DNA of 64,000 nt from Streptomyces pacificus (GTDB lineage: Bacteria; Actinomycetota; Actinomycetes; Streptomycetales; Streptomycetaceae): the NCBI RefSeq assembly GCF_011766325.1, contig NZ_BLLG01000005.1, forward strand, positions 372,001-436,000, given 5' to 3'. The first letter of the stretch is position 1; every line of letters starts with the position of its first letter. Of the stretch, positions 28,452 through 57,680 are shown piece by piece. Below the pieces are notes generated by a model. It had not been told where the DNA came from and searched no databases. It saw nothing but the letters and a program-made list of their open reading frames with translations. The translations under genes were made by a program, and so were the position numbers.

Positions 28452-28540
28452 CTGCCCGGGGGTGCCGGTGCCCCGCGGCCAGGGCCGTTCCCGTATCGGG
28501 GACGGTCTTGAAGGGACGGCTCCGGGGCCCGGAGGCCCGA

Positions 28541-28661
28541 GACCGGGGCCGGGACCGGGACCGGGACTGGGACCGGGGCCGGGACCGGGACCGGGACTGG
28601 GACCGGGACCGGGGCCGGGACCGGGGCCGGGACCGGGGCCGGGACCGGGGCCGGGACCGGG
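28541..28661. repeat. GGGACC-type tandem repeat between aspC and add
   Basis: Two perfect 30-bp units (28541-28570 and 28571-28600) are followed by nearly five 12-bp units GACCGGGGCCGG. One frame would encode poly Gly-Pro, but codon context and position argue for non-coding sequence. About 590 bp separate aspC from add, and I find no gene in it. Confidence 0.85.
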
Positions 28662-28947
28662 GCACGAGGCACGGCCCCGGGTCTCTGCGGCCGGTCGCCA
28701 CAGCCCGGGCGTGCACAGCCCAGGAAACCCTCCCGGGGTGCCACGGCCCGGCGCCACGGCCCGATGCGAGGGCCCCGGGCGACCCGGTGCAACGGCCCGG
28801 GCGCCGTCCTCGACCGGGCCCGCTCCCCTCCCCCCGGGGCGTTCCGGTCGGGCGCCGTCCTCCGCGGACCGTGTTCTTTCGTTCGGGCAAGGACCCGATC
28901 GGGGAAAGGGGCTGCCGGATGCCCGGTGTGTGCGGCAAGATCCTTCA

Positions 28948-39801: not shown

Positions 39802-41046
39802 ATGACACATGAGCTGCGCAGGTCGCTGGGCGTGTTCGACGCCGTGGTCATCGGTCTGGGCTCGATGGTCGGAGCCGGGGTGTTCGTCGCCCTGGCGCCC
39901 GCGGGCTCGGCGGCCGGCACCGGGCCGCTGCTGCTCCTTGCGCTGGGTCTCGCCGCGGCCGTCGCCTACTGCAACGCCACGGCGTCGGCCCGGCTCGCGG
40001 CCCGCTACCCGGCGTCGGGCGGGACGTATGTGTACGGGCGGGAGCGGCTCGGACCGTTCTGGGGGTATCTCGCGGGCTGGGCGTTCGTCGTCGGCAAGAC
40101 CGCCTCGTGCGCGGCGATGGCGCTGACGGCGGGGGCGTACCTGTGGCCGGAACAGGCGCACGCCGTCGCCGTGGCGGCTGTCGTGTCCCTGACCGCCGTG
40201 AACTACGGAGGCGTCCGGAAGTCCGCCTGGCTGACCCGGGCCATCGTCGCGGCCGTGCTCGCGGTGCTGGCGGCGGTCGCCACCGCCTCCCTCGCCTCGC
40301 CGTCAGCGGACCCGGAGCGGCTGCTGTCGGGTGGCCCCGGCGGCGGCACGGGCGGTGTGCTGCAGGCCGCCGGACTGCTGTTCTTCGCCTTCGCCGGATA
40401 CGCGAGGATCGCCACGCTCGGCGAGGAGGTGCGCGACCCGGCCCGGACGATCCCACGCGCGATCCCACTCGCCCTGGGCATCACCCTGGCGGTGTACCTG
40501 GCCGTGGCCTGCGCGGTCGTCTCGGTGCTCGGCGTCGGCGGGCTCGGCCGGGCGGCGGCCCCGCTGGCCGAAGCGGTACGGGCGGCGGGGGCGGAAGGGC
40601 TGGTCCCCGCGGTGACGGCCGGTGCGGCGGTGGCCGCGCTCGGCTCGTTGCTCGCGCTGATCCTCGGTGTGTCCCGGACGACGCTGGCGATGGCCAGGGA
40701 CGGTCATCTGCCGCGTACGCTCGCCGCCGTCCACCCCCGCTTCAGGGTCCCGCACCACGCGGAGCTGGCGGTGGGGTCGGTGGTGGCCGTGGTGGCGGCG
40801 ACGGCGGATCTGCGGGGCGCGATCGGCTTCTCGTCGTTCGGTGTGCTCGTGTACTACGCCCTCGCCAACGCCTCGGCCTGGACGCTCGGTTCCCGGGGGC
40901 GGGTGCTGACCGCCGCCGGGCTGGCGGGTTGCCTGGTGCTCGCGTTCGCCTTGCCGTCGTCGTCGGTGGTGGCGGGCGCGGCGGTGCTGGCTGCGGGAGC
41001 GGCGGCGTACGCGGTACGGGCACGGGCCGGCCGGGGACGGACCTGA
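39802..41046 (+). CDS. APC-family amino acid permease
   Basis: A 414-residue integral membrane protein with about 11-12 hydrophobic helices. The start MTHELRRSLGVFDAVVIGLG and GSMVGAGVF are the typical first-helix motif of the APC superfamily, and FFAFAGYARIATLGEEVRDP is the conserved sixth-helix region. The ATG at 39802 has no Shine-Dalgarno sequence, and TAGGGT seven bases before it could be the -10 of a leaderless message. The substrate is not predictable from sequence; amino acids or amines are likely. Confidence 0.9.
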   Translation: MTHELRRSLGVFDAVVIGLGSMVGAGVFVALAPAGSAAGTGPLLLLALGLAAAVAYCNATASARLAARYPASGGTYVYGRERLGPFWGYLAGWAFVVGKTASCAAMALTAGAYLWPEQAHAVAVAAVVSLTAVNYGGVRKSAWLTRAIVAAVLAVLAAVATASLASPSADPERLLSGGPGGGTGGVLQAAGLLFFAFAGYARIATLGEEVRDPARTIPRAIPLALGITLAVYLAVACAVVSVLGVGGLGRAAAPLAEAVRAAGAEGLVPAVTAGAAVAALGSLLALILGVSRTTLAMARDGHLPRTLAAVHPRFRVPHHAELAVGSVVAVVAATADLRGAIGFSSFGVLVYYALANASAWTLGSRGRVLTAAGLAGCLVLAFALPSSSVVAGAAVLAAGAAAYAVRARAGRGRT

Positions 41047-41150
41047 AGCCCCCCTCGCCCGGGAGCCGGTGGTACGGGCGCGGGCCGGCCGGGCGGAGGC
41101 CGGCCGTGCGCCTCGCCTCATGGCGGACGGCCGGTGGCCGCCTGGTGACC

Positions 41151-48879: not shown

Positions 48880-49448
48880 CAGCTCTTCCCCTCCCGGCCC
48901 TCGGGGCTCCTGCGGGACAGGACGATCGCTCCGACCAGGGCGGCCAGCAGCAGCACGGAGAGCGCCTCGAACGGCAGCACCCAGTGCCGGAAGAGGATCT
49001 CGCCGGTGACCCGGGTGGAGCCCTGGGCCGGTCCTTCGAGGTCGATCCACGTCGTGCGGAACGCGTCGACGACCACCCAGACCAGGGCGGCGGCCGCGGC
49101 GGCCGCCACGGTCAGTGCGGCGGCACGGTTCCCGGAGTCGGCGTCGGGGGAGCGGCCGATGGGAGCCTTGGTGAGCATCAGCCCGAAGAGCAGGAGGACG
49201 ACCACGGAACCGACGTAGATCAGCACCTGCACCCAGGCGATGAACTCCGCGGTCAGCAGGAGGTACTCGACCGCCAGCCCGCCAAGCGCCACGACCAGCC
49301 ACAGGGCGGCGTGCACCAGTTGCCTGGTCGTCACGGTGAGGACGGCGGCGGCGAGGGTGGCGACGCCGACGAGCAGGAAGGCGATCTCGACGCCCGTCGG
49401 GGACAGGAAACCGTTCCCCGTCTGGGCGACGGCGTGGGCGAGGGTCAT
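48879..49448 (-). CDS. nuoJ: NADH-quinone oxidoreductase-type subunit J
   Basis: A 189-residue, five-helix membrane subunit. The ATG at 49448 ([17 protein letters not shown]) overlaps the nuoI stop in an ATGA pattern. The pi-bulge third-helix region is seen as [25 protein letters not shown]. The final helix [19 protein letters not shown] is normal. It belongs to the same operon. Confidence 0.95.
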
Positions 49449-50080
49449 GACCGGCCCCCCCGGTCCGGAGGAGTGGCCGGGCCCGTGGCGTCCGGTGTCC
49501 CGGTCGCCTGGCCGGCCCCGCCGTCCTGGGCACGCGCGGCGGCGAGCTTCTCCGCGGCCTTGCGGGCCGCGGCGAGTTCCTTGGGCTCCTCGGCGGACGG
49601 GTCCAGCGCGGGCGGCGCAGGAACCGTCCACATCCACTCGCGCAGCTTGTCCCGCTCATGGGTCAGCTCGCGGATGTCGGTCTCCGCGTACTCGAACTCC
49701 GGCGACCAGAACAGCGCGTCGAAGGGGCACACCTCGATGCAGATGCCGCAGTACATGCAGAGCGAGAAGTCGATGGCGAACCGGTCGAGGACATTGCGGG
49801 AGCGCTCACGGCCCCCTGGGGCGGCGGCCGGGACCGTCTCCTTGTGGGAGTCGATGTAGATGCACCAGTCGGGGCACTCACGGGCGCAGAGCATGCAGAC
49901 CGTGCAGTTCTCCTCGAACAGACCGATCACCCCCCTCGAGCGGGGCGGGAGTTCGGGCTGCACGTCGGGGTACTGCGCGGTGTGCGCGCGCTTCGTCATC
50001 GTCCGCAGGGTGACGGCGAGCCCCTTGGCCAGGCCGGATCCCGGGATGCGGGACCGGGACGGCGGATGGGAGCCGGTCAT
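49445..50080 (-). CDS. nuoI: NADH-quinone oxidoreductase-type subunit I (two 4Fe-4S ferredoxin)
   Basis: A 211-residue iron-sulfur subunit that carries clusters N6a and N6b toward NuoB. Two complete ferredoxin motifs are visible: [12 protein letters not shown] (about residues 50-61) and [12 protein letters not shown] (about 97-108). An Ala/Pro-rich tail of about 60 residues follows, longer than usual. The ATG at 50080 overlaps the nuoH stop. In the absence of NuoG here, NuoI would be the outermost electron-entry cluster subunit of this set. Confidence 0.96.
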
Positions 50081-51048
50081 GGCTGGATCACCACCTTGAC
50101 GACGCCGGTGAGGGCGATCTGGGCGAGGGCGAGCGGGACGAGCGCCGTCCAGGCGAGCCGCTGGAGCTGGTCCTCCCGCAGCCGCGGAGAGGACACCCGG
50201 ATCCAGATCACGACGAAGGCGAGCACCGCGGTCTTCAGCAGGGTCCACAGCCAGCCGAGGCCCTCGGCACCGAACGGGCCGTGCCAGCCACCGAGGAAGA
50301 GGACGGTGGTCAGACCGCAGAGGACGACGATGCCCGCGTACTCGGCGAGCAGGAACAGGGCGAAGCGCAGCCCGGTGTACTCCGTGTACGCGCCGAAGAT
50401 GATCTCGGAGTCGGCGACCGGCATGTCGAACGGCGGGCGCTGCAACTCGGCGAGACCGGCCACGAAGAAGACCAGGGCGCCCACGATCTGCCAGGGCAGC
50501 CACCACCACTCGAAGGCGTCGAGGATGCCGAGGAGGGAGACGGTACCGGCGGCCATGGCGACGGACGCGGCGGCCAGCAGCATCGGCAGCTCGTAGGCGA
50601 GGAGCTGCGCGGCGGTGCGCAGGGCGCCGAGGAGCGAGAACTTGTTCGCCGAGGCCCAGCCCGCCATCAGCGAACCCAGCACACCGACGCCCATGACGGC
50701 GAGCACGAAGAAGACGCCCGCGTCGACGACGACGCCGACCGCTCCCTCGCCGGGACCGATCGGGATCGCGACCAGCACGAGCAGATACGGCAGGAGCGCG
50801 ACGGCCGGCGCGAGCTGGAACACGCGGCGGTCGGCGGCGGCCGGGACCACGTCCTCCTTCTGCGTGAACTTCACCCCGTCCGCGACGAGCTGCGCCCAGC
50901 CGTGGAAGCCGCCTGCGTACATGGGGCCGACCCGGCCCTGCATATGGGCCATCACCTTGTGCTCGGTCTGCCCGACGACGAGGGGCAGCACCAGGAACAC
51001 GGCGAACACGGCGAGGAGCCGCAGGGCGACGTCGAGTGCGTCGTTCAC
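50077..51048 (-). CDS. nuoH: NADH-quinone oxidoreductase-type subunit H
   Basis: A 323-residue, eight-helix subunit that shapes the quinone chamber. Conserved features include [29 protein letters not shown] and the acidic [20 protein letters not shown]. The GTG at 51048 overlaps the nuoC stop (GTGA), exactly where nuoD to nuoG would normally be placed. All the glutamates of the funnel that I can check are present. Confidence 0.96.
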
Positions 51049-52607
51049 GCGTGGTCGCCTCCTGAGGCGTCGTCGGACCGCGGACCGGATCCTTCATCGG
51101 GCCCGCCGTCCGGCCGGGGAGCCGGGGATGCGGGAGGGGGGCCGTCGGGGCGTGCCGCCGGGCGCGGCCCGGGGGCGGCTGCCCGCCCGGGGCGCGGCCC
51201 CGGCTCGGACCCCGGCTCGGACCCCGGCTCGGACCCCGGCTCAGGGGCAGGCCCTGACTTTGACTCAGGTCCCGGCTCGGACCCCGGCTCAAGGGAAGGC
51301 CCTGACCCGGGACCTTGCCCAGGTTCCGGCTCGGGGGCAGCCCCTTGCCCGGTCGAAAGCTCGCGGGCAGATCCTTGCCCGGGCTCAGGGGCAGCCCCTT
51401 GCCCGGGCTCCGGCTTCGGCTCGGGGCGCGACTCGGGCTCTGGGGCAGACGCCGGCCCGGGCCCCCGCTCCGGCTCGGGTCCGGCCGCGGCGCCGGGTGG
51501 CGGCGGCGTCGGGCCTTCGCCCCGTCCGGCCTGATCCGCGGGGTCGGTCTCCGGCCGCTCCGGGTCGTCGAACGCCGGGCGGGCATGGTGCCAGGGAGCG
51601 TCGGTGGCGCGGGTGCGCGAGGCCGGGCCCGACGGGGGTTCGACCTCGCCGGGCCGGCCCGTTGGGCGATCCGCCGTGCCCTGGGCGCGTTGCGGTGGGG
51701 TGTCCGCCTGCTGAGCGGTCCCTCGCCGGCTGGCCGGACCTTCGGACGCGGAGCGCGAACGCCGTTCGGGCACCTGACTCGCCGACCCCTCGGCGGCGGA
51801 ACGGGACCGCCGCGCCGGAGGCCCGCCGCCGGCTGCCCGCGGCCCCTTCGCCGCAGCGGCCGGACCGCCCGAACGGGCCTGGCCCGCGGTGTCCGTCCGA
51901 CCGGCCGAAGCCGCGGGGCCGCCCGGCCCGGCCTGACTCGCCGACCCCTCCGCCACGCTGCGGGTGCGGCGCGGAGGGCGCTCGCCGGCGGCGCGCGGAG
52001 GGCGGGCTGTGCGGGCGGCTGCAGGGGGGAGCTGGCCCCTGAGGGGGCCCCACTCGTTCGGGTCCGGGACGCCGGGCGGCAGCATCTGGCGCCGCTTCGG
52101 ACCGCCGTGCTCCGACTCTCCCGGTTCCTTCGCCCCCGGCCATGCCTTGGCGACCCGCGCCGCGAGTACGAAGTCCTTGCGCAGCGGGTGTCCTTCGAAC
52201 GTTTCGGGGAGGAGCAACGGCACCAGATGCGGATGGCCGGTGAAGTCCACGCCGAACATCTCGTGGGTCTCGCGCTCGTGCCAGCCCGCGCCGGGGAAGA
52301 TCTCCACGGCCGTGGGAAGCACGGGTGCGTCGTGCGGAACGGTCGTACGCAGCATCAGCCTGCGCACGGAGGTCCCCTCCGCCGCCTTCTCCAGCGACAC
52401 GACGTGGGCGCAGACGCGGAATCCGGTGCCCGGTTCGTCGACGGCGCTGAGCCAGTCGAAGTAGGTGCAGCCGAGTTCGTCGCGGGCGATCCGAAGCGCG
52501 TCCGGCCACGCGGAGGCCGGAACGTCCACGGTCAGCAGCTCGTACGCCGCCTCGGCGGTCGCTTCCGGGCCGAAGCGCTCCGCGATGTCGGTCTCGAAGG
52601 TGCTCAC
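51045..52607 (-). CDS. nuoC: NADH-quinone oxidoreductase-type subunit C with long disordered tail
   Basis: The 520-residue protein is more than twice the usual length. Residues 1-190 are a complete Nuo[22 protein letters not shown], then [18 protein letters not shown] and [16 protein letters not shown]. Residues 191-520 are Pro/Gly/Ala/Ser/Arg-rich without hydrophobic core, including [11 protein letters not shown]-type and [15 protein letters not shown] repeats. The tail keeps one open frame with no NuoD similarity, so this is not a NuoCD fusion. The GTG at 52607 overlaps the nuoB stop and the 3' end overlaps nuoH. Confidence 0.92.
51202..51237. repeat. Three 12-bp tandem repeats inside nuoC tail
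   Basis: Three perfect copies of GGCTCGGACCCC encode the PGSE repeats of the NuoC tail. Further degenerate copies run to about 51480. Confidence 0.85.
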
Positions 52608-53353
52608 GAGGCGGCTCCTCCCCGGTCGGACCCGCGCCCGTCCTGCGCCTCGTCCTGCGACGGCGTCGCACCCGGCGCCGTCGCACCGAAGGGGGAGTCC
52701 GGGGCGTTCCCGGCCGGCCCGGGCGGGCTCACCAGCCCACTGCGGAGTTCGCTCACCGAGGCCCGCCCGGAAGCGGTGGCGTACCGCTCGCCCAGCGACT
52801 CGCGAGCGATCTTCTCCTGAAGTTTGAGAACGCCCCCCAGCAGCGCCTCGGGCCGCGGGGGGCAGCCCGGGACGTAGACGTCCACGGGGATGATCTGGTC
52901 GACGCCCTTGGTCACGGAGTAGGAGTCCCAGTACGGGCCACCGCAGTTCGAGCAGGCCCCGAAGGAGATGACGTACTTGGGCTCGGGCATCTGCTCGTAC
53001 AACCGCTTGACGGCGGGCGCCATCTTGTCGGTGACCGTGCCCGACACCACCATCAGATCGGCCTGGCGCGGGCCGGGCGCGAACGGGATCACGCCGAGGC
53101 GGATGAAGTCGTGCCGGGCCATCGACGCGGCGATGAACTCGATCGCGCAGCAGGCGAGACCGAAGTTGAAGACCCACAGGCTGTAGCGGCGGCCCCAGTT
53201 CAGGATCACCTTCATCGGCTCGGGTGCGAGCCGGGAGAGGGCTCCCAGCCTCCTGGGTTCCGGCAGCGGCACCGGCTCGGCTGCGGGTTCGGCTGCCGGT
53301 CCAGCTGCGGGTTCGGCGGGCTCCTGGCCCGGGGTCCGCGGGGTCACGTCCAT
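52604..53353 (-). CDS. nuoB: NADH-quinone oxidoreductase-type subunit B
   Basis: A 249-residue subunit carrying cluster N2, the last before quinone. The cysteine pattern [17 protein letters not shown] and [10 protein letters not shown] is complete. Pro/Ala-rich extensions are found at the N-terminus (about 40 residues) and C-terminus (about 40 residues). The ATG at 53353 ([11 protein letters not shown]) lies within the end of nuoA, overlapping by 10 bp. Confidence 0.95.
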
Positions 53354-53754
53354 GTGAGGACGCCCTTCTTCCATGCGTAGAGAATTCCCACGGCCAGGAA
53401 GCCGAGGAAGATGAACATCTCCACGAGTGTCGTCGCCCCGTATCCGGCCGCGGCGAAGACCGTGGCCCACGGGAACAGGAAGATCGAGTCCACGGCGAAG
53501 ATCACGTAGAGGAACGCGTACACGTAGTAGCGGACCTGGGTGTGCGCCCAGCCCTCGCCCACGGGGTCGACCCCGCACTCGTACGTGAGCAGCTTCTCCG
53601 GAGTCGGCACGACCGGCCGCAGCAGCCGTCCCGCGCCGAACGCCACGGCAACGAAGAGCACCCCGACGAGGGCGAGCAGCCCGACCACCGCGTAGCTCTG
53701 GAAGTAGTCGGCCGCGAGTACGGCCGGCGATTCGGGAAGTGTCCGCACGTCCAC
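53344..53754 (-). CDS. nuoA: NADH-quinone oxidoreductase-type subunit A
   Basis: A 136-residue, three-helix subunit and first gene of the operon. The conserved loop [16 protein letters not shown] and the segments [22 protein letters not shown] mark NuoA. The GTG at 53754 has AGGGAG/GAGG upstream; a second GTG six bases later is an alternative. The promoter should lie in the 186-bp divergent gap shared with the sensor kinase gene, but I could not assign it. Confidence 0.94.
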
Positions 53755-53940
53755 CCCTCGCTCCCTGCCCGTTCGACGATCTGTACGCACGGGAGTCTAG
53801 GCCCTGTTAAAGAAACGGTAAGCGGGCGTGTCAGTCATCGGACCGGAACAACGGGCACCGCACCGGTGGGGATATCCCCACTCCGCCTTCACCCCCATAC
53901 CCCATGGCGTGCGCGGACACGGGCGTGCAGGCTGTCCCGC

Positions 53941-55113
53941 ATGACCCCGACCAGCAGTTCCCCCGACGTCCGCGGGTGCGGACCCGACGGACCGCCGCCG
54001 GCCCGCTTCGCCTACGACCGGTGCACCTGGAAGGAGATCGCCCACCTCCTCCTGGATCTGCCGGTCGCCCTCGCCGGGTTCGTCTACACGTCGACCATGC
54101 TCGCGGTCGGCGCCGGACTGTCGGTGACGGTCGTCGGGCTGCCGCTGCTCGCGGGCGGACTGGCCGGCGCGCGCCTGTTCGGTCGCGGGGAGCGGGCCCG
54201 GGCCCGGGCGCTGCTCGGCGTGCGGGTGGACGAGCCGAGCCGGCTCCCCCGAACCCCGGGGACGGGGTTCCTCGGCAGGCTGTGGAACAGGCTGAAGGAC
54301 CCGGTGGGCTGGCGGACCGTGCTGTACGCGTTCGTCAGGCTTCCCTGGGCGGTCCTGTCCTTCACCGTCGTATCGGCGGGGCTTTTCGTGCTGTGGCCGG
54401 TGCTGCCCTTCCTCGTCCGGGCGCTGGCGAACGTCGACCGGGCGATGGTCCGGGGACTGCTCTCGCCGTCCGACGAGTTGGAGCGGCGCATCGCGGAGCT
54501 GGAGTCGGGTCGGGGCGTCGTCGTGGACACGGCAGCCGCCGACCTGCGCCGCATCGAACGCGACCTGCACGACGGCGCACAAGCCAGACTCGTCGCCCTC
54601 GCCATGGACCTCGGACTCGCCAAGGAGAAACTCCACCACGACCCCGACACCGCCGCCACCATGGTCGACGAAGCCCACGGCGAGGTGAAACTCGCCCTCA
54701 AGGAACTCCGCGACCTGGCCCGCGGCATCCACCCGGCCATCCTCACCGACCGCGGCCTCGACGCCGCACTCTCCTCCGCCGCCACCCGCTGCACCGTCCC
54801 CGTCCGAGTCCACGTGGACCTACCCACCCGCCCCACCCCGGCAACCGAAGGCATCGCCTACCTCACCGCCTCCGAACTCCTGCAGAACATCAGCAAACAC
54901 AGCCGGGCACACACCGCCTCCATCGACATCTGGCGCACCGAGAACCGCCTGCTCATCCAGGTCCACGACGACGGACACGGCGGAGCCGACCCCACCGGAC
55001 ACGGCCTCGCCGGCCTCGCCGAACGCCTCCAGGCAGTCGACGGACTCCTCCTCATCGACTCCCCCACCGGCGGACCCACCACCATCACCGCCGAACTCCC
55101 CTGGCGCACCTAA
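53941..55113 (+). CDS. NarL-class sensor histidine kinase 1
   Basis: A 390-residue membrane kinase. The ATG at 53941 (MTPTSSSPDVRGCG) lacks a Shine-Dalgarno sequence. Residues about 35-75 and 120-165 are two pairs of membrane helices forming the sensor part. Residues 186-390 are the HisKA_3/HATPase_c module: phospho-acceptor His in RRIERDLHDGAQARL (about residue 210), N-box ELLQNISKHSRA and G-box VHDDGHGGADPTGHGLAGLAERL. That entire module and 82 bp of 3' flank are almost identical to kinase 2. Its codons (AGA, GAA, CAA, AAA and many C-ending) differ from the N-terminal half. The signal is unknown. Confidence 0.92.
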   Translation: MTPTSSSPDVRGCGPDGPPPARFAYDRCTWKEIAHLLLDLPVALAGFVYTSTMLAVGAGLSVTVVGLPLLAGGLAGARLFGRGERARARALLGVRVDEPSRLPRTPGTGFLGRLWNRLKDPVGWRTVLYAFVRLPWAVLSFTVVSAGLFVLWPVLPFLVRALANVDRAMVRGLLSPSDELERRIAELESGRGVVVDTAAADLRRIERDLHDGAQARLVALAMDLGLAKEKLHHDPDTAATMVDEAHGEVKLALKELRDLARGIHPAILTDRGLDAALSSAATRCTVPVRVHVDLPTRPTPATEGIAYLTASELLQNISKHSRAHTASIDIWRTENRLLIQVHDDGHGGADPTGHGLAGLAERLQAVDGLLLIDSPTGGPTTITAELPWRT

Positions 55114-55195
55114 CCCCGCCACACCCCCCGGCCCACGAAGCGGCACCTCCACACAGACCCCTCCCCGTTCCGGGCCCGGACACCGGCCGCACACC
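54495..55195 (+). repeat. 701-bp direct repeat, copy 1
   Basis: This segment matches 56064-56764 with a single mismatch (54521 T versus 56090 C) by direct comparison of the two stretches. It covers the catalytic half of the kinase gene plus 82 bp after the stop, and similarity ends abruptly at both sides. Confidence 0.97.
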
Positions 55196-55374
55196 GGCCC
55201 TGCTCCACCCCCTGATCCGACGCACCCGCCGGCCGACGGGGTGGGGAAAACCCCCGGAGGAACACGGAGAAGCACCGCATGGTGCCTGCCCGGCGGCACC
55301 GCGAATGCTGGGCGTGCACACCGCGCCACCCGCGGCGTGCCACCGCCGACCGGACGAGCAGAACGGACGACACC

Positions 55375-56682
55375 ATGACCACGGCACACCGAGCCGGGCC
55401 CCGGGTCCACGGACTCCCCCCGGCGCTGCGGGCACCGTTCGAGGGCCGCACCTGGCGCGAGTTCGGCTACCTCCTGCTGAGCCTGCCCCTCAGCATCGTG
55501 TTCTTCGCCCTGGCCCTGTCGCTGACTGCGGCCGGCGCCGGACTGGTGGTCACGTTCCTCGGCATCCCGGTCCTCGCCGGAGCGCTCGCGATGTGCCGGG
55601 GTTTCGGCGCGTTGGAACGGGTCCGGGCGCGGGCGCTGCTGCGGCTCGATGTGGCGGATCCCGCGCCACTGCCGCCGGGGGGCAACGGCGCGCTCGGCCG
55701 GGTCACCGCCTTGCTGAAGAGCGGGACGTCCTGGCGGCACCTCCTCTACGCGCTGGTGCACATGCCGTGGGCGGTCTTCGCGTTCTCCGTCTCCCTGGTG
55801 TTCTGGAGTTACGGCTGGTGTCTGCTGACCTATCCGCTGTGGCAGTGGGTCTTCCCCCTCTACGCGGGGATCGACGGCCTGCAGATCTACGGTGACGACA
55901 CGCACGACGTCTACCTCGACTCCCCGCTCGAACTCGCCGCGACCAGCCTGATCGGCCTGCTGTTCACCCTGGCCGCGCCCTGGATCATCCGCGGACTCGC
56001 CACGGTGGACCGGCTGCTGGTCACCGGGCTGCTCGGCCCCTCCCGACTGGAGGGCAGGCTGGTGGAGCTGGAGTCGGGTCGGGGCGTCGCCGTGGACACG
56101 GCAGCCGCCGACCTGCGCCGCATCGAACGCGACCTGCACGACGGCGCACAAGCCAGACTCGTCGCCCTCGCCATGGACCTCGGACTCGCCAAGGAGAAAC
56201 TCCACCACGACCCCGACACCGCCGCCACCATGGTCGACGAAGCCCACGGCGAGGTGAAACTCGCCCTCAAGGAACTCCGCGACCTGGCCCGCGGCATCCA
56301 CCCGGCCATCCTCACCGACCGCGGCCTCGACGCCGCACTCTCCTCCGCCGCCACCCGCTGCACCGTCCCCGTCCGAGTCCACGTGGACCTACCCACCCGC
56401 CCCACCCCGGCAACCGAAGGCATCGCCTACCTCACCGCCTCCGAACTCCTGCAGAACATCAGCAAACACAGCCGGGCACACACCGCCTCCATCGACATCT
56501 GGCGCACCGAGAACCGCCTGCTCATCCAGGTCCACGACGACGGACACGGCGGAGCCGACCCCACCGGACACGGCCTCGCCGGCCTCGCCGAACGCCTCCA
56601 GGCAGTCGACGGACTCCTCCTCATCGACTCCCCCACCGGCGGACCCACCACCATCACCGCCGAACTCCCCTGGCGCACCTAA
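55375..56682 (+). CDS. NarL-class sensor histidine kinase 2
   Basis: A 435-residue membrane kinase starting at the ATG at 55375 (MTTAHRAGPRVHG). The N-terminal half has four hydrophobic helices and a longer extracytoplasmic loop (residues about 160-200, including YGDDTHDVYLDS). It is related to but clearly different from kinase 1. Residues about 231-435 form the catalytic module (His about 255), identical to kinase 1 except Ala for Val at one position. The gene lies 261 bp after kinase 1 and 266 bp before the single response regulator gene. Both kinases could signal to that regulator. Confidence 0.92.
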   Translation: MTTAHRAGPRVHGLPPALRAPFEGRTWREFGYLLLSLPLSIVFFALALSLTAAGAGLVVTFLGIPVLAGALAMCRGFGALERVRARALLRLDVADPAPLPPGGNGALGRVTALLKSGTSWRHLLYALVHMPWAVFAFSVSLVFWSYGWCLLTYPLWQWVFPLYAGIDGLQIYGDDTHDVYLDSPLELAATSLIGLLFTLAAPWIIRGLATVDRLLVTGLLGPSRLEGRLVELESGRGVAVDTAAADLRRIERDLHDGAQARLVALAMDLGLAKEKLHHDPDTAATMVDEAHGEVKLALKELRDLARGIHPAILTDRGLDAALSSAATRCTVPVRVHVDLPTRPTPATEGIAYLTASELLQNISKHSRAHTASIDIWRTENRLLIQVHDDGHGGADPTGHGLAGLAERLQAVDGLLLIDSPTGGPTTITAELPWRT

Positions 56683-56764
56683 CCCCGCCACACCCCCCGG
56701 CCCACGAAGCGGCACCTCCACACAGACCCCTCCCCGTTCCGGGCCCGGACACCGGCCGCACACC
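56064..56764 (+). repeat. 701-bp direct repeat, copy 2
   Basis: The partner of 54495-55195 at a fixed offset of 1569 bp. Both copies include the same 3' flank, including the CCCCGCCACACCCCCCGG segment. Confidence 0.97.
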
Positions 56765-56948
56765 AGTCGGCCCCGACACACCACCCGGGCCTCGCTCCAC
56801 GCCCGGGAGCGGGACCGGACCCGGCACCCGATCCGCGCGGCCCCTGATCCGAAACGCTCACCCGATCGTGTGAAGGGTGCGATGCTGGGGTCGACCGCCG
56901 GACGCAGGCCGCGGGCCGTGCACAACGACCGCAGGGGGACGCACCGCC

Positions 56949-57680
56949 GTGGAGCACGAGACAGACGCCCTCCCCGGGCACGCCGCACCGTCCGGTAGCG
57001 CCCCGTCCGGGCCGCGCGCCGTGCGGGTCGTCATCGCCGAGGACTCCGTGCTGCTCCGCGAGGGCCTCACCCGGTTGCTCGCCGACCGCGGTCACCACGT
57101 CGTCGCGGGCGTCGGGGATGCCGAGGCGCTGATCGGGGCGGTCGGGGAGCTGGCCGCGCGGGACGACCTGCCCGACGTCGTCGTCGCGGACGTACGGATG
57201 CCGCCCACGCACACGGACGAGGGCGTCCGCGCGGCCGTCCGACTGCGCAGGGACCATCCGGGCCTGGGTGTGCTGGTGCTGTCGCAGTACGTGGAGGAGC
57301 GATACGCCACGGAGCTGCTCGCGGGGAGCAGCCGCGGTGTGGGCTATCTGCTGAAGGACCGGGTCGCCGAGGTCAGGGAGTTCGTGGACGCGGTCGTCCG
57401 GGTGGCCGGCGGTGGGACGGCGCTGGACCCGGAGGTCGTGGCGCAGCTGCTGGGGCGGAGCCGGAAGCAGGAGGTACTCGCCGGCCTGACCCCCCGGGAG
57501 CGCGAGGTGCTGGGCCTGATGGCGGAGGGCAGGACGAACTCGGCCATCGCACGGCAGCTCGTGGTGAGCGACGGCGCCGTGGAGAAGCACGTGGGCAATA
57601 TCTTCCTGAAGCTCGGGCTGCCCCCCGGCGAGGGTGATCATCGGCGGGTACTGGCGGTGCTCACCTATCTGGATGCCTGA
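56949..57680 (+). CDS. NarL/FixJ-family response regulator
   Basis: A 243-residue regulator from the GTG at 56949, with AGGGGG about eleven bases upstream. The receiver domain holds the acidic pair in [13 protein letters not shown], the phospho-acceptor Asp about 81 in [10 protein letters not shown] and the conserved Lys in GYLLKDR. The C-terminal LuxR helix-turn-helix is [20 protein letters not shown] then [20 protein letters not shown]. It ends the kinase cluster and presumably controls genes near it; its targets are unknown. Confidence 0.94.

Follow-up and report, generated by a model that had tools for sequence, protein, structure and literature searches.

GRINS, the base-skewed repeats of polyketide synthase (PKS) genes, are commonest in actinobacteria and have been tied to gene conversion in the consulted sections of four accounts (PMC10394414; PMC9899208; PMC11907408; PMC11915812). 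As described in two of them, GRINS are near-identical repeats in related coding sequence that carry strong GC and TA skews of the same sign and are associated with conversion (PMC10394414; PMC9899208). They drive the diversification of antibiotic assembly lines. The consulted sections of the four accounts offer no mechanism that would set the sign of the skew, and a literature search, with subscription papers mostly outside its reach, found no paper that connects NucS with replication polarity and GRINS. Conversion between actinobacterial paralogues is also known from the mycolactone PKS (PMC2569948) and from paralogous genes of Mycobacterium tuberculosis, where an enrichment of T>C changes was reported (PMC13061034); unlike the tracts considered here, neither case is described as having a replication-polarised skew in the passages available to us.

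Another system close to the locus studied here is AbrC1/AbrC2/AbrC3 of Streptomyces coelicolor (SCO4598/4597/4596), in which two adjacent sensor kinases of the PF13796 type accompany a LuxR-type regulator of antibiotic production that both kinases can activate. This arrangement is conserved across Streptomyces, but conversion or homogenisation goes unmentioned in the available portions of its published accounts (PMC4428217; PMC3098853). Relative to the GRINS accounts, as far as their consulted sections go, the analysis below adds a rule that gives the skew its sign, a proposed cause, and signalling genes.

An AbrC-like kinase pair and its shared catalytic half

The window, i.e., the whole 64,000-nucleotide stretch of Streptomyces pacificus DNA that was analysed, holds the following features:

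53941..55113, forward strand: HK1, an abrC1-like sensor kinase of 390 aa; open reading frame with ATG start; Pfam PF13796 sensor, HisKA_3 and HATPase_c
54495..55195, forward strand: converted tract, copy 1, covering the catalytic half of HK1 and 82 bp beyond its stop; A+C-skewed
54521 (partner 56090), forward strand: sole difference between the copies, T in copy 1 (Val in HK1) and C in copy 2 (Ala in HK2)
55114..55195, forward strand: non-coding 3' part of the copy 1 tract; GC skew -.47 and TA skew -.56, stronger than in the tract
55375..56682, forward strand: HK2, an abrC2-like sensor kinase of 435 aa; open reading frame with ATG start; Pfam PF13796 sensor, HisKA_3 and HATPase_c
56064..56764, forward strand: converted tract, copy 2, covering the catalytic half of HK2 and 82 bp beyond its stop; A+C-skewed
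56949..57680, forward strand: LuxR/GerE-type response regulator, abrC3-like; Pfam Response_reg and GerE

The HATPase_c matches of both kinases score slightly below the curated Pfam cut-off, and the GTG start of the regulator at 56949 was picked by eye, the mechanical reading frame beginning at 56877. By gene order, domains and genus-wide conservation the locus matches AbrC: two tandem sensor kinases stand together with a LuxR-type regulator, the latter examined in the window only. Judged by their translations, the neighbours resemble nuo genes on the upstream side and genes for 2-oxoacid:ferredoxin oxidoreductase on the downstream side. On the reverse strand at 49445-53790, the presumed nuo genes are A, B, C, H and I in that order, H following C directly with D-G absent; the C-like gene has a long repetitive tail rich in Pro, Glu and Gly.

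A first-pass annotation had reported a single difference between the two copies, identity running past the stop codons and clearly diverged sensor halves, and all three observations hold. The copies lie 1569 bp apart, their first full common codon is 186 in HK1 and 231 in HK2, the identity extends 82 bp beyond both stops, and the N-terminal halves share 36% protein identity. The unusual codon use that it described is also real in substance, being carried by the third positions (C.73, A.13, G.14 in the module, vs C.46-.49, G.43-.48 and A.04-.05 in the N-terminal halves) and by GAA (7) and AAA (3); AGA and CAA, which it had listed as well, occur only once each.

Set against GRINS, the tract shows more than the required >80-90% identity to a nearby region, with one difference in 701 bp, a length that compares with about 1 kb, or at least 500 bp in PMC9899208. 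Its GC skew of -.31 and TA skew of -.33 exceed the thresholds of.25 (PMC10394414) and.15 (PMC9899208) given in the consulted parts of these accounts, and they make it the most GC- and TA-skewed stretch of the window in 600-bp steps. Unlike GRINS, it lies not within one polyketide synthase but in two separate histidine kinase genes, and it includes non-coding flank. The kinase tract is thus the GRINS phenomenon in a signalling pair, and acts like GRINS outside their PKS-based definition.

Recurrent conversion and the skew of the converted tracts

A search with HK2 returned a match in 121 of 121 genomes, including the one under study. Among 96 Streptomyces loci taken from the 120 other genomes, nearly all picked for a strong HK2 match, 92 contain two modules and four contain one (L074, L079, L102 and L108). 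Trees were built from 161 pairs, i.e., these 92, the window and 68 further named loci (80 minus 11 duplicates and a single-module one). The sensor halves separate into HK1 and HK2 groups, 321 of 322 sequences being placed accordingly and no two from one genome being sisters, which indicates that the kinases are old tandem paralogues whose duplication is old in the genus. The module tree keeps the same split in 312 of 322 sequences and contains seven same-genome sister pairs, the window included. Both modules of the window fall in the HK2 clade, and HK1-type residues at module positions 151-152 mark them as mosaic.

Exact runs between the two modules of a locus reach at least 60, 100, 150, 200 and 300 bp in 83, 34, 19, 13 and 5 of 159 loci, respectively, the mis-framed L086 and L125 being left out here and kept in the trees above and in the per-base correlations and contrasts below. 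The runs cluster in the module's first two thirds and seldom cover its last 30%, the window being the extreme case. Identical tracts of at least 40 codons were found in none of 2500 cross-species comparisons of HK1 with HK2 modules, and chance is therefore excluded for the repeat in the window. Within-genome identity far above orthologue identity, mosaic structure and abrupt borders together indicate that the catalytic halves swap sequence by repeated short gene conversion, both recent and recurrent. Of the two events that the first-pass annotation had allowed, conversion or duplication of the module, the former is thus supported, whereas a recent duplication does not agree with the age of the pair. 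The comparison with relatives that it had recommended shows their two copies to be partly homogenised as well. Such exchange would let the sensors diverge and still leave both kinases matched to one regulator in their dimerisation, phosphotransfer and ATP-binding parts, and a two-sensor, one-regulator system would in this way keep its catalytic cores alike by copying.

The converted tracts are also unusual in composition. The excess of A+C over G+T is higher inside than outside the tracts in 75 of 82 loci (position-corrected means.333 vs.009, p 2e-12) and, for tracts of at least 40 codons, in all 36 loci (.525 vs.021). Across 161 loci, run length correlates with the third-position bases of the module (A +.32, C +.61, G -.56, T -.41), each base moving as expected of a keto-to-amino shift, and with those of the N-terminal halves all values lie within.15 of zero. 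For third-position A+C minus G+T in the module, rho is.70 in the 92 loci without the window,.42 (p 3e-4) in the 68 further named loci, and.60 in 158 loci from which the window and the two mis-framed loci were excluded; the third-position skew of the N-terminal halves does not correlate with run length (.20, p.06, in the 92 loci; -.03 in the 68). Phylogenetic contrasts retain the association for the module (r.435, p 8e-9; sign test 114/160; rank correlation.22, p.005) and give r -.01 for the N-terminal halves. In the 161 loci, longer runs further go with second-position G (+.38) and A (-.29) of the N-terminal halves, which counts somewhat against the explanation proposed below.

Three controls bear on the short tracts. 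Orthologue tracts among loci without conversion have no excess (-.091 vs -.064, p.3; 62 of 2500 pairs), a weak short-tract excess appears in orthologue pairs drawn at random with converting loci included (.145 vs.029, 82 of 5000, p.005), and cross-species HK1/HK2 pairs have one of.290 vs.081 (15 of 2500, p.017). Since two of the controls show some excess for short tracts, and no cross-species pair reaches 40 codons, chance composition may account for some of the signal in short tracts, whereas the long ones are beyond its reach. The unusual codons of the window are thus most likely a product of conversion itself.

Replication direction and the sign of the skew

Judged by dnaA positions, replication meets the kinase pair head-on in 34 of 34 genomes (31 directly, three in records with a shifted start), so that its coding strand matches the nascent lagging strand in sequence. 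PKS genes occur in both orientations, and the comparison of head-on with co-directional PKS genes was chosen before any PKS sequence was examined; this choice fixed the comparison alone, the expected sign following from the model presented below. Sixty PKS regions of at most 20 kb were taken from complete or near-complete Streptomyces genomes, among the KS-domain matches listed, by chromosome arm and strand, and 27 of them had the required 40 or more third positions in exact repeats of at least 100 bp.

In the 16 co-directional regions, mean third-position A+C minus G+T is -.446 inside repeats and.005 outside, with a downward shift in 15, vs.675 inside and.140 outside in the 11 head-on regions, all of which shift upward (Fisher p 9e-7, by region). 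With repeats of at least 200 bp, 11 of 11 co-directional and 10 of 10 head-on regions behave as predicted; at 60 bp, 17 of 19 and 14 of 15 do, two and one disagreeing. Pooling by genome gives the predicted sign in 10 of 10 head-on and 14 of 14 co-directional groups (p 5e-7), i.e., in 24 of 24 genome-by-orientation groups, and four genomes (G031, G051, G058 and G096) contain both signs according to orientation. The single co-directional exception at 100 bp, L199, shifts the wrong way (+.33 inside vs +.19 outside). A and T move in opposite directions: in co-directional repeats A falls in 15 of 16 regions and T rises in 16 of 16, and in head-on repeats A rises in 10 of 11 and T falls in 11 of 11. 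Pooled third positions within repeats are A.013, C.265, G.581 and T.141 in co-directional regions, and A.113, C.718, G.154 and T.015 in head-on ones. The sign of the skew thus very probably follows the direction of replication, which now predicts the sign in GRINS.

A genome of another family, G225, agrees in part: four of its five co-directional regions (100-bp repeats) shift to G+T and the fifth, L266, shows no effect, with replication direction assigned on the assumption of a circular chromosome whose terminus lies opposite dnaA; no head-on repeats were found in it. In one of its co-directional PKS regions, L263 (G225:C1:1786000-1805900), third positions in repeats are almost all G+T (-.98). 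In the genome from which the window comes, PKS repeats of L276 (G000:C2:4500-24400) have -.37 inside vs +.16 outside, and the third-position A of L278 is.23 in repeats.

Outside the actinobacteria, a Janthinobacterium PKS plasmid chosen as a control for a MutS host contained no exact repeats of at least 30 bp. Exact repeats of at least 100 bp in NRPS genes on plasmids of Mycetohabitans, Bradyrhizobium and Variovorax (6 ORFs), a small sample of three records, have shifts of A+C minus G+T of only -.03 to -.13; A goes down there, and T goes down or stays level. A fourth stretch, L259, contained no NRPS gene.

Proposed NucS rejection and the competing explanations

All 13 genomes examined, that of the window included, carry nucS, and mutS1 was found in none of the 13. 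NucS prefers G-T, G-G and T-T mismatches and has little or no activity on others such as A-C (PMC8228993; PMC5290159; PMC11551744). In Mycobacterium smegmatis it blocks recombination of sequences that are not identical, by a factor of about ten at 90% identity, and its deletion in S. coelicolor raises mutation (PMC8228993; PMC5290159), all as given in the available parts of these papers.

These properties suggest how a polarity could arise. A single strand that is copied from one gene as the DNA replicates would anneal to the lagging-strand template of the other gene; for a head-on gene, the donor strand would have the coding-strand sequence. Where the donor has G or T and the recipient C or A, the pairing would produce G.G, G.T and T.T mismatches, i.e., NucS targets, and the exchange would be rejected. 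Where the donor has A or C and the recipient G or T, the resulting C.C, A.C and A.A mismatches would attract little or no cutting, and the exchange would survive. Over repeated rounds, the strand that has lagging-strand sequence would become enriched in A+C in both copies. The opposite movements of A and T fit this mismatch set, because it predicts that A and T move oppositely.

MutS is blind to C.C, and blindness to C.C alone would move only C and G. A toy two-copy simulation that rejects G.G, G.T and T.T with one donor strand gave an M-K of.51-.89 with C at.72-.89 and A at.04-.06; with either donor strand M-K was.03, and other settings gave weaker values (.18 and.29). In the simulation the mechanism would suffice, i.e., it can work, which does not mean that it does.

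Two reports count against the NucS step: NucS repair has been suggested to be reduced during recombination in M. tuberculosis, according to the consulted part of a 2026 preprint (PMC13061034), and is held unable to be strand-specific, in the accessible text of another study (PMC12999951). In the present model the asymmetry would have to stem from the donor strand; that such a strand pairs with the lagging template when conversion occurs naturally is assumed from oligonucleotide recombination. On balance, the polarity and the known mismatch preference favour NucS modestly as the mechanism of the skew, and the explanation as a whole, in which old paralogues undergo repeated biased conversion with NucS rejection on the lagging template, seems to us somewhat better than an even bet. 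Whether NucS imposes replication-polarised conversion wherever paralogues exchange DNA, which would make it the general origin of GRINS, extend GRINS to signalling genes and turn the sign of the skew into a record of both past conversion and gene orientation, is an even question. The sign rule, together with the match between NucS mismatch preference and the base changes, makes the cause directly testable in laboratory strains.

The skew could instead reflect a replication-strand mutation bias that is stronger in repeats, or strand-biased repair by a system other than NucS, such as base excision or polymerase errors in recombination synthesis. Either would follow replication direction too, and a small shift of the same sign is indeed present outside repeats (.005 co-directional,.140 head-on). 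The changes are, however, mostly a G-to-C exchange accompanied by A/T antisymmetry, which agrees with the NucS mismatch set and not with one common mutation type, and this explanation is rather unlikely.

The order of events might also be reversed, a pre-existing A+C-rich sequence promoting recombination so that conversion follows skew. That GRINS composition eases conversion is a view cited in the available part of PMC9899208, and under NucS rejection skew and conversion would reinforce each other. An initial skew would still need a cause, in separate lineages, limited to tracts and with its sign set by replication, so we regard skew as the starting point as improbable.

Merging of the two copies by the assembler could be suspected from their near identity and from the 120-contig draft in which the window, itself free of N, lies. 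Long tracts, however, also occur in single-contig genomes, where they measure 205-487 bp (G080 487 bp, G089 451, G065 287, G031 275, G058 244 and G051 205), and merging would not produce a base skew. An artefact is accordingly very improbable.

The first-pass annotation had read the codon use, which is sharply unlike the rest of both genes, as a sign of foreign ancestry, i.e., an A+C-rich catalytic half acquired from elsewhere and copied into both kinases. This ancestry is neither needed nor supported. Apart from the HK2-clade placement and the mosaic residues, the best other match in the same genome is 71% over 213 bp, leaving no close third copy; the best of the 92 relatives' module pairs reaches 85%; and other genomes have the same shift in their converted tracts but not in the rest of their modules. 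A foreign source thus has almost no standing, and odd codons in a repeated Streptomyces gene do not by themselves imply acquisition from elsewhere. The rise of C-ending codons in the module might point to classical GC-biased gene conversion or to selection for preferred codons. This reading is equally hard to credit, as GC-biased conversion would raise G and C together without strand polarity, whereas A rises and G falls in head-on genes, T rises in co-directional ones, and the sign flips within one genome.

Two further stretches of the window stand out. At about 40400-41150 the TA skew is strong and opposite (+.40), with no repeat noted, and a short tandem-like repeat at 28522-28685 consists of GGGACC/GGGGCC units in eight overlapping copies.
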